From: Isosphaera pallida ATCC 43644
GTDB taxonomy: Bacteria; Planctomycetota; Planctomycetia; Isosphaerales; Isosphaeraceae
Direction: 5' to 3'
Assembly: GCF_000186345.1 (NCBI RefSeq)
Contig: NC_014962.1
Span: 372,001-436,000, forward strand
DNA length: 64,000 nt
Part shown: piece after piece, positions 16,961 through 41,760 of the stretch
How positions within the stretch are numbered: position 1 is the first letter of the stretch
Layout of the letters: every line of letters begins with the position of its first letter
Program-made: the position numbers and the translations under genes
The notes under the pieces: generated by a model
The model's input: the letters and a program-made list of their open reading frames with translations, nothing else
The model's database searches: none
Told to the model about the DNA's origin: nothing

Positions 16961-18406
16961 TCAGGGTTTGCTCAGCTTGGCGCGGAGCAACTCCAACGCT
17001 TTATTGAGTTGCCGATCCTCGAACGCGGCTGGGTCGTCGGCGTTGTCCGTGGGGGGACGATCGTTGGCGGCCTCCTCCACAGGCTTGGGCTTGGGTTGGC
17101 CGTCGGTATTGAGGTTGGCTTCGGCCTGGTCTTCCCGCCCAACTTCGGGCTGAAGGATGTCGAGATCGCGGAGGCGGCGAGCCAACGCCCAGCGGCGGTG
17201 TTCCACCTCGTTGTATTTGATTTCGCAGTCAGGATCGGGGAAAACGCCCCACTCGTCGGTCTCCTTAGCGTCCTCGAAGCGGTGGATGTTCTTGCCTGAG
17301 GGACGCCAGTAGGTGGCGACGGTCAGTTTCAGCACGCTGACGCCGTCGGAAAGTTCAATCACATTTTGAACCGAGCCTTTGCCGAAGCTGCGCTGACCGA
17401 CCACCTGGGCGCGGCCGTGGTCTTGGAGACAGGCCGAGAGAATCTCGGAAGCTGACGCCGAATACTGGTTGATCAGAACCACCATCGGAATGTCCAGGAA
17501 ATCGCTTTCCGAAGCGGTGGCTTTGAACGTCCGTTCTTCGACGTTACGACCCCGGGTGCTGACAATCACGCCTTGGTCGAGGAACAGGTCGGAGACCTCC
17601 ACCGCGGCGCTAAGCAACCCGCCAGGATTGTCGCGTAAGTCGAGAATCAGCCCTTTGACCTCCTGAGACTTGAGCGTGTCCAGCGCCTCTTTGAGATCGG
17701 CGGCGGTGCGGGGCACGAAGGCCGTGAGTCGGATGTAGCCGATCTTGTGTTCGGGATCGAGCCAATACTCCCAGGAGCCGTCGGGACGGCGACGATCCCC
17801 CAGCACGCTGGGCACGTCGATGATGGATCGCGTGCAGATGACTTCGACGGGCTCGCGGGCGTTGACATGTAGCACTTTGAGCTTGACTTCGGTACCGGGT
17901 CGTCCTTGAAGCAACTCGATGACCTGGTCGGTGCTGAGACCGTCGGTCGAGCGGTCGTCCACTCCCAAAATCAGGTCGCCCGCCAGAATGCCCGCCTTTT
18001 GGGCCGGCGTGCCCGCCATAGGAGCGATGACCTTGAGCCGCCCGCTGGCCGTGTCGGTGCCTACCTGGATGCCGATACCGCCGAAGCTGCCCTCGATCGA
18101 ACGGCGGAACTGGTTCGACTCGCCCGCGTTGAAATAGGTGGAATTCTGATCCAGCTTGCGGCACATTCCCCGGAGCGCTTCTTCGATCAACTCCTTACGC
18201 GAGACCGGGCGAACGTAATTGGCCTGAGCCTGCTCGAGGGCTTCGACAAACAGGCCATAAAGCTCGCGGATCTCGTCCTCGTCGTCGGCCTGGGCGTGGG
18301 CGAAGCCGGACCAGACCGCCGGGGTCGCCCACAACCCGCCCACCAACGCTAGGATCGCCAGGCTTGCCCCGATCCTTGCCGCCACGCCACGCCGTTTGCT
18401 GGTCAT
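16961..18406 (-). CDS. ctpA: S41A C-terminal processing protease (CtpA type)
   Basis: The 481-residue protein has a signal peptide (about 1-38, ending AHAQ), an N-terminal helical part, and a PDZ domain (about 95-175, with GGIGIQVG, AGILAGDLILGVDD). The S41 protease core follows, with LDLRDNPGG. The catalytic serine S318 lies in QYSASASEIL and the lysine K343 in SFGKGSVQ, 25 residues later as in Prc. It would cut C-terminal tails of exported proteins in the periplasm or envelope. The C-terminal 80 residues are charged and poorly conserved, with an EDQAEAN-PKPKP-type linker. ATG 18406 has GGGGAGA upstream and gives the signal peptide directly. Confidence 0.93.
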   Translation of the reverse strand: MTSKRRGVAARIGASLAILALVGGLWATPAVWSGFAHAQADDEDEIRELYGLFVEALEQAQANYVRPVSRKELIEEALRGMCRKLDQNSTYFNAGESNQFRRSIEGSFGGIGIQVGTDTASGRLKVIAPMAGTPAQKAGILAGDLILGVDDRSTDGLSTDQVIELLQGRPGTEVKLKVLHVNAREPVEVICTRSIIDVPSVLGDRRRPDGSWEYWLDPEHKIGYIRLTAFVPRTAADLKEALDTLKSQEVKGLILDLRDNPGGLLSAAVEVSDLFLDQGVIVSTRGRNVEERTFKATASESDFLDIPMVVLINQYSASASEILSACLQDHGRAQVVGQRSFGKGSVQNVIELSDGVSVLKLTVATYWRPSGKNIHRFEDAKETDEWGVFPDPDCEIKYNEVEHRRWALARRLRDLDILQPEVGREDQAEANLNTDGQPKPKPVEEAANDRPPTDNADDPAAFEDRQLNKALELLRAKLSKP

Positions 18407-18780
18407 GATTGCTCGTCTCCCCGCTGCGTCCATCGTCCCGCGTTACTTCAACGCCACTGGGTTGCGTCGTATGCCGCCGCGAGTCCCGCACGTTGGGGTT
18501 GTGCTGTGCCGAACTCTTCGGTTGTTCAGTGTAGCCGATCCGCCCAACCCCGAACAAGACAACCGGAGGGACACCCTCCGCTGTCTCCGCCCTCGTTCGA
18601 CCCGACCCCCGCCTCGTTGAATGAGAGTGGTGGTCTCTCGACACGCATCGTATGATGCGGACAACAACCAATGCGGCGACAACGTGGCGGCGATCCTTCA
18701 GGACCAGGTGGAAGGTCAAGGAGGTTGTTCGATTCCGAACCAAGCCGCCCCAACCCGCCTTGTGGAGACGCGTTGAGCCG
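18407..18780. other. Divergent intergenic region between protease and oxidoreductase genes
   Basis: This 374-base spacer separates two divergently read genes and should hold both promoters. I could not identify specific boxes. The oxidoreductase frame is open through part of it, back to 18652, but the added residues match nothing. Confidence 0.45.
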
Positions 18781-20937
18781 ATGAGTCCCTCCGACCAGCC
18801 CGCGATCCCCAGAAACGGACTGGCGACCGCTTCTGCCCACCACGTTCGCAAGGTGGTCAAGGCGGTCTGCCCACTGGATTGCCCCGACACCTGCGGCATG
18901 GTCGTCACCATCGAACGCGGCAAGGCGATCGACTTGCGCGGCGACAAGGACCATCCTTTTACCCGAGGATTCCTCTGCCGCAAAATGGCCCGCTACCTCG
19001 ATCGGGTATACAGTCCCCAACGCCTGACCCAACCGCTCAAACGGGTTGGATCTAAAGGAGAAAGCCGATTCGAACCCATCGGCTGGGACGAGGCGCTGGA
19101 CACCATCGCCCAAGCAATGCGCGAGGCGATCAGCTCGCCGGAAGGGCCGCAGTCGATCCTGCCCTACAGCTATTGCGGCACGATGGGCAAGATTCAGTCC
19201 AGCGGCCTGGACCGCCGGTTCTTTCACCGGATCGGGGCCTCGTTGCTGGACCGAACTATCTGCGCCACGGCTGGTACGGTGGGTTATCAATATACGATGG
19301 GGTCCCCCCGCCACGGAGCCGACCCTCTCGCGGTCACGGGGTGTCGGCTCATTCTCAACTGGGGCTCCAACACCGCCAGTACCAACAGCCATTTGTGGTC
19401 GCTGATGATCCAGGCCCGCAAGACCCAGGGCGCATTGATCGTCACCATTGACCCCCATCGCTCGGAGACCGCCGCGCGGTCCGACCTTCATTTGCCGATC
19501 CGTCCCGGCACCGACGCCGCGCTCGCTTTGGGGTTAGCTCATGTGATCTTTCGAGAAGGTCTAGAGGACCGAGCTTTTCTGGAGAAAGCCGCGCACGGCG
19601 TGGCCGACTTCCGGACCCGCGCGTTGGAGGAATTCCCCCCTGAACGGGTCGCGGCGATCACCGGCCTGGAGGTTGCCGCGATCGAGGATCTGGCGCGGCG
19701 TTACGCCGCCACCCATCCCAGCCTAATCCGGCTCAACTACGGCCTGCAACGTCACCGCGGCGGCGGGATGGCAGTACGCACCGTCGCCTGCCTGCCGGTC
19801 CTGGTCGGAGCCTGGAAATATCCCGGCGGCGGCGCGCTGCTTTCCACCAGCAACAGCTTCGGTTGGAACGACGCGGCCCTGGAACGCCCCGACCTCATCC
19901 CCCCAGGAACCCGTACCGTCAACATGAACCAACTCGCCGAGGCGCTCCTGGGCGAATTGCCCGGTCCCCCGGTAAAGGTGCTTTATGTCTACAACTCGAA
20001 CCCCGCCGCTGTTGCCCCCGACCAAAGCCGGGTCCATCGCGGTCTGGCCCGCGACGACCTCTTCACCGTCGTTCACGACCTCTTTCTTACTGACACCGCC
20101 GACTTCGCCGATCTCGTGTTGCCTGCCACCTCGCAATTAGAACATCACGACATCCACGGCGCTTACGGCCACCACTTCGTCATGTACAACGCTCCGGCGA
20201 TCGCTCCCGTGGGCGAGTCGAAGTCCAATTCGGAGGTCTTCCGCTTGCTGGCCCAACGCCTCGGTCTAGAGTCGGAACTCTTCCCCGATGATGAGACCCT
20301 GATTCGTGAGGTCCTCAACGGCGGACCAGCTCTTCAAGGGATCACCTTGGAACGGCTCAAAGAGACCTATTCGATTCGTCTTAACCTGCCCAGTCCATTC
20401 GTCCCGTTCGCCGACGGGGCTTTTCCCACCCCCTCGGGCAAATGCGAACTGCGTTCCGAGACAATGGCCCGCGACGGTTACGACTCGTTGCCCACCTACA
20501 TCCCGCCGCGCGAGGATCCCCAAACCCGTCCCGACCTAGCGGCGCGGTTTCCCCTCCAACTCATCACCCCGCCTCACCCCCAGTTCCTCAATTCCACCTT
20601 TGCCAACGAGGAGCATCACCTCAAGCTGGCCGGTCCCCAGGTGGTCGAATTGGCCGCGGCCGACGCCCAAACGCGGGGAATCGCTGACGGCGACCGGGTC
20701 GCGGTGTTCAACGACCGGGGCCAGTTCGAGGCGTTCGCGCGGGTGGGCGACACGGTGCGCCCCGGCGTGGCGGTCGCGTTCGGCATCCACTGGAACAAAC
20801 AGGTTCAAGGTGGTCGCAACGTGAACTTCATCACCTCCACTGCCCTGACCGACATGGGCGGCGGAGCCACCTTCTTCGACAACCTGGTGGAAATTCGCAA
20901 ACTCGCCGACAACCCCGGATCGGAGGCCGGAACGTGA
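18781..20937 (+). CDS. Molybdopterin oxidoreductase (DMSO reductase superfamily)
   Basis: The 718-residue protein begins with an iron-sulfur motif (C30, C34, C38, then C66 in FLCRK). Molybdopterin-binding segments follow (LPYSYCGTMG, NWGSNTAST, TIDPHRSETA, RPGTDAALALG, SNPAAVAPDQ, LPATSQLEHHDIHGAYG), and a C-terminal molydopterin dinucleotide-binding domain from about 590. It would be a large catalytic subunit using bis-MGD. The substrate is unknown, and no membrane or electron-transfer subunit lies next to it. No twin-arginine signal is seen, so it is probably cytoplasmic. It ends in a GTGA overlap with the next gene. ATG 18781 is chosen over the unsupported upstream extension. Confidence 0.9.
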   Translation: MSPSDQPAIPRNGLATASAHHVRKVVKAVCPLDCPDTCGMVVTIERGKAIDLRGDKDHPFTRGFLCRKMARYLDRVYSPQRLTQPLKRVGSKGESRFEPIGWDEALDTIAQAMREAISSPEGPQSILPYSYCGTMGKIQSSGLDRRFFHRIGASLLDRTICATAGTVGYQYTMGSPRHGADPLAVTGCRLILNWGSNTASTNSHLWSLMIQARKTQGALIVTIDPHRSETAARSDLHLPIRPGTDAALALGLAHVIFREGLEDRAFLEKAAHGVADFRTRALEEFPPERVAAITGLEVAAIEDLARRYAATHPSLIRLNYGLQRHRGGGMAVRTVACLPVLVGAWKYPGGGALLSTSNSFGWNDAALERPDLIPPGTRTVNMNQLAEALLGELPGPPVKVLYVYNSNPAAVAPDQSRVHRGLARDDLFTVVHDLFLTDTADFADLVLPATSQLEHHDIHGAYGHHFVMYNAPAIAPVGESKSNSEVFRLLAQRLGLESELFPDDETLIREVLNGGPALQGITLERLKETYSIRLNLPSPFVPFADGAFPTPSGKCELRSETMARDGYDSLPTYIPPREDPQTRPDLAARFPLQLITPPHPQFLNSTFANEEHHLKLAGPQVVELAAADAQTRGIADGDRVAVFNDRGQFEAFARVGDTVRPGVAVAFGIHWNKQVQGGRNVNFITSTALTDMGGGATFFDNLVEIRKLADNPGSEAGT

Positions 20938-39209: not shown

Positions 39210-39725
39210 TCACTCGATATATCCTAGTCCCCGTAGACGCTCCTTGACCAGTTCATCCTCGTCGGGGTCGGCGGCAGGAGACTGGGCCAGGGTTTCCTGG
39301 AGCGTGGCGATCCAGCTGATCAGGGAGGCAGGCTCAAGGGTCTCGGTGGGCGGGTTCGAATTGGCATAACCGGGAGGCGTCACCACGAGGAAGACGCCGC
39401 CTTGGGGGGAACCAGCGATCACCAGCGCCAGGACGTTGCCCCGAGGGCCGCTGCCCGATTGAAACGCGCTCAGCAGTTCGGTGATAGCTCCGTCGATCCG
39501 GTCGGGAGCGGCGTCGAGTTCGAGGTCGAGGTCGAGGTCGAGCCGGGAGACGGTGGTCCACCGATTCTGGACCAGGTTGGACCAGATGGGGTCGGCGGGG
39601 TCGGCGGTGGTTAGTTCACCTGACTGGCCCGAGGCGGCTAGACCGGCTAGTGAGGGCAGCCGGGGGTCGTCGAACAGATCCAGCGGGCGGGACGACTTGA
39701 GGGTGATGAACGCCAAATGGGTCAT
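39210..39725 (-). CDS. Small protein coupled to the phosphodiesterase gene, unknown
   Basis: This 171-residue protein is acidic, with no signal peptide and no domain I recognise. It starts MTHLAFITLKSSRPLDLFDDPRLPSL and has a run of alternating Asp-Leu residues (encoded by repeated GAGGTC on the plus strand, 39522-39541). A more ordered hydrophobic strand, NVLALVIAGSPQGGVFLVV, lies near 103-121. Its C-terminus ends DELVKERLRGLGYIE, a sequence that resembles the tail of some phosphodiesterase or sulfatase family proteins. The start codon overlaps the stop of the phosphodiesterase gene by four bases (ATGA), which indicates coupled translation. The function is unknown. Confidence 0.7.
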   Translation of the reverse strand: MTHLAFITLKSSRPLDLFDDPRLPSLAGLAASGQSGELTTADPADPIWSNLVQNRWTTVSRLDLDLDLELDAAPDRIDGAITELLSAFQSGSGPRGNVLALVIAGSPQGGVFLVVTPPGYANSNPPTETLEPASLISWIATLQETLAQSPAADPDEDELVKERLRGLGYIE

Positions 39726-41599
39726 GGGATGAGACTCCGTCCTTCCCACTCGTCAGGAGCGGGGACGCCGAGGGCCTTGGTGATCGTGGGGGCTAGGTCG
39801 ATCAAGCGTGGAGCTGGTCCGGTCGCCGCTGCGCTGTCGTAGGGGCGGTTCATCGCCAGGAAGCCGGGCACGCGGTCGGGGTCGATCACATGATCGCCGC
39901 TCCAGGCGTGGTCGTTGTCTTGGAAGGTCGCGTCATCGACCCGGCCGGCGGACGACCCCCAGGCCACTCGGTAGCCCGGCGCGAAGTGGACCAGCACATC
40001 GCACGCCCGATTGACATAGGGACCCTGGAAGATCGCGTCGCGGCACAAGGCGCGAGTAATCGCGGTTTGGCCGGTTTGGGGGTCGATCAAACCCGTCAGA
40101 CCAGCCGCGATTCGCTCGGCGAGGTGGGCCGCCTCGTCGGGTGGCACGATCCCCTGCGCTTCGCGGCCTTGCAGGTTGAGGAAGATCGCTCCAAGACCCA
40201 CTGAGTAAGCCTGGGTATTCGACCAGTCGATCCCTTGAAGGTAGTCGCCCGCGGGGTCGCCGGGAGCGATGTTGGGCTTGGGGGTGAGCAGACCTTGATC
40301 CTGCAGCCAGGCGTTGAGTCCCACACCCCGGCGGAAGTCGTCGAAGCCGTGGTCCGACAGGGCGATCACCAGGGTTTGGTCGTCGGCCGCCTCCAGCGCC
40401 AGGCCGGCCATCGTGTCGGCCCGTTTATAGGCATCGAGGATCGCCGCGGCTCCTTGTTCGGTGCGGGGACGGCCCCGATGAGCCGGGTGAGCGTCGTCCC
40501 AGTAGCGCCAGAAGAGATGTTGAATGCGATCCGGAGTATCGAACAAGCAGAAGATCAGACCTTCGGAGGAACGATTGAGGGCATGGCGCAGCATCGCCTC
40601 ACGCTCGCGCCAGCAGAGGTCGCATTGGTTGAGGAAGGCGGCTTCGTCGAGTCGGCCGTTGGCGAGGCCGGCGTGGTCTTCGACCATGCCGGTGGTAGCG
40701 TAGAGGCCCAGGGTGTCGGCGAGGTCGCCTGCGTATTCGGGCGGCTCGCTAATAGGGAACAACGGGCTGTGGGGGTCGAAGTTGACCGGCGAGGCGTAGA
40801 GACGCACTGGCGGGTCGTTTCGTTCCAGACGCCAGCGCACGATGCCCCGGGTCGAACGGAGCAGGCCGGCTTTAAACTTCACCCGGGTCCAGCCGCTCCA
40901 CACGCCGGGTTCCAAGGCGACCGGACCGCCTTCGACGCCTTCCAACAGCAGGCCGGGGCCGTCGGATCGGGGCTTGAGTTTGATTTCGCGAACCAGGTCG
41001 CCCTTGGCGTCGCGGGGACCGATCAAGCTGCCCACGAGTTCACCGTTGGGCTTGCGTTCCAAACGAACGACCCGCTCGCTCTCAAGCGCCCGCACCTCGG
41101 GTTCTTCGGTGAAGAAGGTGGCAGTGCCGAAGCCTCCCCGGAGGTCGGGCACGCCTAGACCCGAGAGCAGACGAATTTGGCCCTGGCCGGGGTCGGGTGG
41201 ATAGGCGCAGGGGGGACGGAGAACTTGCGAAGGGATGCCCGCCCGCGCAAGAACCGACCAGACCGGATCGCCGCCGCGCAGGTTGACCACCCTGGGTGGC
41301 AGCAAGGGGTTGGGACGTTCATAGCGGTTCAGCGCCATATCGACCCGATGGCTGGCCGGGTCGCGGGTCAGGAAGTCGAAGATGCCGTGGCCGCCGGGGT
41401 TGCGGCTGGTGGCGAAGCTCGACCAGGCCACCGGAGTTTGCGCAGGGGCGGTGGTGGCCACGGTGGAGAAGCCGCCGCGTCGGCGAAGTTCGGCGAGGTG
41501 AGGCAATTCACCGCGTCCTTGAAACTCCTCGATCAAGCGGGGCGACAAGCCGTCAAGACCGATCACAATGACGCGGCGAACGAAGCGCGTGGAACTCAT
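39722..41599 (-). CDS. Type I phosphodiesterase/nucleotide pyrophosphatase family protein
   Basis: The 625-residue protein has the alkaline phosphatase superfamily core. The first metal Asp is D16 in VIVIGLDGLSP. The probable nucleophile T55 lies in APAQTPVAWSSF, an FCLFDTPDRIQHLFWRY segment carries metal-binding Asp and His, and SDHGFDDFRRG supplies the second Asp-His pair. It has no signal peptide. In related systems the protein is preceded by or fused to a short membrane segment, here supplied by a separate gene. Such enzymes hydrolyse phosphodiesters or transfer phosphate groups, often on lipids or nucleotides. The start at 41599 overlaps the upstream stop as ATGA. The family assignment is good, the substrate open. 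Confidence 0.85.
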   Translation of the reverse strand: MSSTRFVRRVIVIGLDGLSPRLIEEFQGRGELPHLAELRRRGGFSTVATTAPAQTPVAWSSFATSRNPGGHGIFDFLTRDPASHRVDMALNRYERPNPLLPPRVVNLRGGDPVWSVLARAGIPSQVLRPPCAYPPDPGQGQIRLLSGLGVPDLRGGFGTATFFTEEPEVRALESERVVRLERKPNGELVGSLIGPRDAKGDLVREIKLKPRSDGPGLLLEGVEGGPVALEPGVWSGWTRVKFKAGLLRSTRGIVRWRLERNDPPVRLYASPVNFDPHSPLFPISEPPEYAGDLADTLGLYATTGMVEDHAGLANGRLDEAAFLNQCDLCWREREAMLRHALNRSSEGLIFCLFDTPDRIQHLFWRYWDDAHPAHRGRPRTEQGAAAILDAYKRADTMAGLALEAADDQTLVIALSDHGFDDFRRGVGLNAWLQDQGLLTPKPNIAPGDPAGDYLQGIDWSNTQAYSVGLGAIFLNLQGREAQGIVPPDEAAHLAERIAAGLTGLIDPQTGQTAITRALCRDAIFQGPYVNRACDVLVHFAPGYRVAWGSSAGRVDDATFQDNDHAWSGDHVIDPDRVPGFLAMNRPYDSAAATGPAPRLIDLAPTITKALGVPAPDEWEGRSLIP

Positions 41600-41760
41600 T
41601 GATCCCGATTCAAGCGGAACACTCGACGCAGCAGGGTCTTGGCCATCACCAACGCCGAACGTCCCAGCAGAAGGGCCCCGCCCAGGACGGTCGCTAGCGC
41701 CGAGGCCAGCGGCATCGTGGTTTCGGGACCGAAATAGGAGAACACGATGAACGATGACAT
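41596..41760 (-). CDS. 54-residue membrane protein upstream of phosphodiesterase
   Basis: The 54-residue protein has an FSYFGPET motif near the start, one hydrophobic helix (about 17-34, PLASALATVLGGALLLG), and a basic C-terminal end (RRVFRLNRD). A similar short YIGPGAG-type segment is found fused to or next to phosphodiesterases of this family in other bacteria, so it may anchor the enzyme at the membrane (inference from family knowledge). Its stop overlaps the next start as ATGA, and AAGGGG lies nine bases before ATG 41760. A longer frame to 41868 has no support. Confidence 0.7.
   Translation of the reverse strand: MSSFIVFSYFGPETTMPLASALATVLGGALLLGRSALVMAKTLLRRVFRLNRDQ

Follow-up and report, generated by a model that had tools for sequence, protein, structure and literature searches.

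The locus analysed here is closest to the PF01663 / nucleotide pyrophosphatase family of the AP superfamily, of which its phosphodiesterase (PDE, gene 2) and intact copies of a second phosphodiesterase, designated AP2, are members. Its third gene derives from AP2 and has neither the metal and nucleophile residues of that family nor a Pfam match. AP-superfamily members without standard catalysis are already a known kind, and one is YejM/PbgA/LapC of the enterobacteria, which apparently lacks proper catalytic residues (PMC7773988). Gene 3 resembles YejM in being an AP-superfamily protein without standard catalysis for which another role is proposed, but YejM, an integral membrane protein, is large and includes a periplasmic domain, whereas gene 3 encodes 171 amino acids without a membrane segment, and in the lineage of gene 3 the catalytic loss recurs many times in different groups of organisms. 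Docking peptides are also a known kind. The encapsulation peptides of encapsulin cargo proteins and of microcompartments are short conserved helices or peptides which are joined through a flexible linker to varied carriers. The C-terminal RLxGLGY[ILV] tail of gene 3 and its relatives is likewise short, placed behind a flexible linker and found on varied carriers, and to our knowledge it matches none of the known peptides of the encapsulin or microcompartment type. Searches of the open-access literature for the tail motif, COG3379 and planctomycete AP-superfamily pseudoenzymes returned nothing relevant, the motif query having matched inside ordinary words, and no description of a shared C-terminal tail with exchanged carriers, or of repeated wear-down of an enzyme to a tail carrier, was found in that literature.

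Layout of the cassette

The window is the 64-kb stretch of the Isosphaera pallida chromosome from position 372001 to 436000, and the three frames of the cassette all lie on its minus strand (Table 1). An earlier note on this DNA had described three genes joined by two ATGA overlaps, and both overlaps are real, with their coordinates confirmed. The four-base overlap between the PDE and gene 3 was found in 26 of the 28 Isosphaeraceae loci in which the two genes are linked and in many loci of other phyla, and this recurrence argues that it is not due to chance. In most relatives gene 1 and the PDE are separated by a gap and do not overlap. The GC contents of gene 3 at the three codon positions (0.69/0.49/0.77) match those of the PDE (0.70/0.51/0.77), as for a real gene. 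The cassette in general consists of a YxGPE membrane peptide, a PDE and an AP2, and Isosphaera has one reduced form of it. A promoter and terminator scan gave a number of sites not above that in shuffled sequences. An anti-phage defence system was rejected because no PADLOC defence model matched any of the three proteins up to E 0.1.

Table 1 Features of the three-gene cassette in the I. pallida window
Feature	Window coordinates	Strand	Description
Gene 1	41596..41760	-	54 aa, single-helix membrane peptide of type YFGPETxxPxxSxxA...GR
Gene 2 (PDE)	39722..41599	-	625 aa, type I phosphodiesterase, PF01663
Gene 3	39210..39725	-	171 aa, eroded, catalytically dead AP2 relative
ATGA overlap, gene 1 / PDE	41596..41599	-	Special to Isosphaera
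ATGA overlap, PDE / gene 3	39722..39725	-	Conserved across relatives
Gene 3, residues 1-42	39600..39725	-	Retained AP2 N-terminal strand-helix segment without the metal-binding Asp
Gene 3, residues 155-171	39213..39263	-	C-terminal tail DEDELVKERLRGLGYIE

Gene 2 scored 119.9 bits against PF01663 (curated cut-off 23; E 2.3e-34), and an orthologue is present in 35 of 45 Isosphaeraceae genomes. The metal-binding Asp and His residues D16, D357, H361, D416, H417 and H570 are invariant in 32 aligned orthologues, as are the candidates for the Thr nucleophile (T49/T50/T55). Sequence searches for solved relatives gave none for the PDE and weak sulfatase matches only for AP2, and the predicted PDE model resembles NPP enzymes and phosphonoacetate hydrolase. 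Gene 2 would encode an active cytoplasmic type I PDE, whose hydrolytic activity is predicted from sequence, and it carries no C-terminal LGY tail.

Gene 1 has no Pfam or NCBIfam match above any cut-off. A YxGPE/D peptide lies upstream of the PDE in 25 of the 35 Isosphaeraceae loci, and such peptides also precede the PDE in Gemmatimonadota, Gemmataceae, Pirellulales and Rokubacteria. Conservation of the 54-residue frame, on which the earlier note had made its reading depend, holds for these 25 loci and does not extend to those of Paludisphaera (6 genomes), Tautonia sociabilis, G005 and G010, where gene 1 was not found; the 10 loci without it also include G024, whose upstream side is cut by a contig end. 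In L175, L177 and L181-L190 (Phycisphaerae and others) the PDE relative itself carries a YIGPGAG segment at its N-terminus, which supports the earlier suggestion that gene 1 is the split-off counterpart of this segment. Gene 1 would then be the membrane anchor part of the module, split from the PDE.

Ancestry and erosion of gene 3

The third protein had been taken for an added part that matched nothing. Up to E 10 it matched nothing in Pfam or NCBIfam, and its relatives were located by position because a direct search with it gave no significant full-length relative among 44 family members. Gene 3 nevertheless aligns to AP2 at both ends. In an ungapped comparison of its first 42 residues with AP2, 0 of 5000 shuffles reached the observed similarity, and its tail aligned to the AP2 tail with an hhalign value of 5.9e-7. 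With the tail removed, gene 3 scored 12.5-14.9 bits against models of the AP2 lineage, compared with at most 6.4 bits for several hundred scored shuffles. Homology outside the tail, together with the same slot and overlap, assigns gene 3 to the AP2 lineage, and on these sequence comparisons it is an eroded homologue of the AP2 that normally holds the slot. An orphan or an added new subunit was ruled out by synteny, intermediates and HMM tests. Relative to AP2, gene 3 no longer has any of the catalytic residues and is shorter by about 320 internal residues; the columns of the catalytic set D, T, D, H, D, H, H hold K, a gap, D, three gaps and S, and the lone D sits in a low-complexity stretch. 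An in-frame repeat, LDLDLDLELD (window 39513-39542), lies where relatives have deletions and possibly arose through slippage during erosion.

The AlphaFold2 model of gene 3 is a compact alpha/beta structure (pLDDT 79, pTM 0.67). The structural matches listed for it are almost all from the AP superfamily, with autotaxin and Xanthomonas (Xac) NPP in the lead, and 129-142 residues were aligned to autotaxin, Xac NPP and sulfatases, at Z values of 9.1-8 that are little above the tool background for unclear models (7-8). The first Foldseek match was YejM (best E 2e-3). From this model, gene 3 is predicted to keep the core of the AP-superfamily fold.

The downstream side of the PDE was readable in 32 of the 35 Isosphaeraceae loci, and AP2 or a remnant of it is linked there in 28. 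The fixed cassette and shared gene order expected in the earlier note are largely borne out; the linkage of the third gene fails in Singulisphaera and Aquisphaera, where AP2 is unlinked from the PDE. Eighteen of the 28 linked slots hold an intact AP2 of 485-500 aa with the catalytic set D-T-D-H-D-H-H, two (G031, G032) hold a copy of full length or nearly so in which this set is broken, and eight are shortened to 171-357 aa (G028, 357 aa; G041, 296; G005, 264; G039, 261; G042, Tautonia sociabilis, 244; G008, 196; G029, 175; Isosphaera, 171). The catalytic set is accordingly lost in 10 linked copies, and the tail is kept in all 28. When a short gene 3 was scored on the PDE tree of the Isosphaeraceae, at least five changes on well-supported branches were needed, so shortening occurred independently at least five times. 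Paludisphaera (genus g17) alone contains intact copies (G030, G027), dead full-length copies (G031, G032), a deleted copy (G028) and a minimal one (G029). Dead copies also occur outside the linked Isosphaeraceae loci, in the unclassified bacterium JZ-2 (L124) and two Terriglobia (L161, L171), and unlinked from a PDE in Aquisphaera (L275) and an Acidobacteriales genome (L253). RLxGLGY[ILV] ends every dead copy found, within and outside the Isosphaeraceae.

Between the reduced copies G039 and G041 dN/dS is 0.29 (PDE, 0.12), from which it follows that eroded copies are not free of constraint. Pairs of intact AP2 gave 0.07-0.22, and pairs with a dead or shortened copy mostly 0.32-0.69. These higher values, the catalytic loss and the large deletions would be expected of a decaying, functionless AP2 pseudogene, but at least five independent reductions have kept the open frame, the start overlap and the tail, and the G039/G041 ratio and the coding-like GC pattern also speak against decay, so that this explanation is strongly disfavoured and very improbable. 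G005 has an intact AP2 that lacks the tail and is encoded away from the PDE (L273, C188:94015-95463), and beside the PDE it has an eroded copy with the tail (L093:6993-7784), which suggests a natural separation of two roles, that of a catalysis-competent AP2 and that of a tail carrier.

The C-terminal tail and its carriers

The tail has the consensus [DE]xx[IV]RxRLxGLGY[ILV], and its R, L, G, L, G and Y are invariant in all aligned relatives of gene 3. Its carriers were surveyed in 80 loci from Planctomycetota, Acidobacteriota, Gemmatimonadota, KSB1, Verrucomicrobiota, Rokubacteria and others, where the usual carrier is an intact or dead AP2 adjoining the PDE. The sole other proteins found in I. 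pallida with a C-terminal RLxxLGY are two AP-superfamily enzymes. In L129, L138/L139 and L173 (KSB1/Verrucomicrobia clade) the PDE bears the tail in cis through a 44-45-aa extension, and a linked third gene is absent there. In the tree these cis-tail PDEs group together as a single clade inside the AP2-linked ones, so the tail was probably retained as the linked AP2 disappeared. In L176/L198, L178 and L229 the carrier is a basic protein, 51-64 aa long, encoded directly after the PDE. Tailed proteins of 60-67 aa, whose ribbon-helix-helix resemblance comes from matches below cut-off, lie beside PDE paralogues in KSB1 and others (L201, L203, L204, L215, L217, L221-L224, L248, L249). Neither the tail nor the small 51-67-aa proteins had a profile-library match above any cut-off.

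These carriers bear on whether the folded core of gene 3 is itself the functional part. Gene 3 could be an allosteric or structural partner of the PDE, the dead half of an old AP1/AP2 heterodimer, with a tail that merely aids assembly. The core is predicted to fold and is present in every reduced Isosphaeraceae copy, and YejM/PbgA, the first Foldseek match, is an AP-superfamily protein apparently without proper catalytic residues (PMC7773988). Such a pseudoenzyme subunit is nonetheless unlikely, since the cores of the reduced copies have diverged to 23-31% mutual identity while the tail is invariant, some PDE relatives are accompanied by tail proteins of 51-67 aa in which an AP core is absent, and a linked AP2 is missing from the cis-tail clade.

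Another tailed protein occurs in the KSB1-class genome G049, where an APS kinase (L278:9450-10073) ends in KKRLSDLGYI. The same glycan-type cluster encodes an ATP sulfurylase to which an AP2-like phosphodiesterase domain is fused (L278:10339-12972), with PDE paralogues, glycosyltransferases and a polysaccharide deacetylase-like gene as neighbours. Near the KSB1 cluster, a sulfatase (Pfam match) and a sulfatase-like protein (L279:15520-17376 and 17597-19000) end in LGYIR and LGYIK, and by these ends the tail reaches beyond phosphodiesterases. In several of these clusters the small tailed protein has as its neighbour a membrane protein of roughly 272 aa with no Pfam match (L279:6848-7669, L281:11694-12515, L283:4572-5399, L284:6640-7458 and similar), a possible candidate for the tail receptor.

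Carriers as unrelated as PDEs, AP2, sulfatases, small proteins and an APS kinase, and a strictly C-terminal position as a predicted short helix after a flexible linker, would also suit a sorting or cargo label directing its carrier to a compartment, a membrane complex or a protease, in the manner of the encapsulin and microcompartment peptides; gene 3 would then be a carrier that has no need to bind the PDE. No shell or receptor gene was seen adjoining the cassette within the 64-kb window, however, and both the fixed ATGA coupling and the exchange between cis and trans with a single PDE family favour a role specific to the PDE, which makes a general label of this kind quite improbable. When a cis-tail PDE was modelled with AlphaFold2, its tail came out as a short helix of low confidence (pLDDT about 53-60), set off by a disordered linker below 50, and did not dock; only three of the aligned sequences had the tail, and the model gave no confident docking site. 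An undocked tail is expected for a tethered ligand and is not proof of one.

A proposed docking tail supplied in trans

The reading that we favour is that the cassette is a membrane PDE module in which gene 3 probably provides a membrane-associated PDE with a C-terminal docking tail in trans. It draws on the homology of the AP2 slot, the parallel erosion with the tail kept, the tail in cis and the small tail proteins, and also on the split in G005, the alignment of gene 3 without its tail, the AP-like matches of the AlphaFold2 model and the constraint between the two reduced copies. Having arisen from an AP2 co-translated with the PDE, gene 3 would keep a small folded core and the tail, and would act as a holder that brings the tail in trans to the PDE complex; it looks as if the tag rather than catalysis is the part that matters in the eroded gene. 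The tail would serve for docking or as a label, with recognition of its free end by a receptor that may be the PDE itself, gene 1 or some other membrane protein. Descent from AP2, the repeated independent loss of catalysis, the tail at the end of every dead copy found and its presence in cis on the PDE or on other carriers are established at the level of sequence. From these we infer a complex at the membrane in which gene 3 is bound to the PDE and the tail is docked to a partner; a tight complex of the three proteins is plausible.

Several observations were counted against a docking tail. Eroded copies evolve faster than the PDE, the tail of the cis-tail model is undocked, and Singulisphaera and Aquisphaera have a tailed AP2 that is not linked to the PDE, the Singulisphaera copy being intact and located elsewhere in the genome. 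Four Gemmatimonadota PDE loci (L145, L150, L157, L168) lack a tail both on the PDE and next to it, and no tailed AP2 was found in the genome of one of them, G051. L168 has a very long branch.

A broader proposal, advanced tentatively and with somewhat less confidence than the role of gene 3 itself, is that RLxGLGY[ILV] may be a docking code that stands on its own, is so far undescribed and belongs to a membrane module spread over several phyla, with interchangeable carriers (the PDE, AP2 whether active or dead, small proteins that are basic or resemble ribbon-helix-helix domains, an APS kinase and sulfatases) and with whole enzymes repeatedly worn down to near tag-holders. One small family offers a series from active enzyme through dead full-length copy and deleted copy to minimal carrier in which one short element is kept. 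Two questions thereby become testable, namely what the RLxGLGY tail of these widespread PDEs binds and why pseudoenzymes persist. A further outcome is an unnamed family of proteins of 51-67 aa for which the profile libraries searched have no description.
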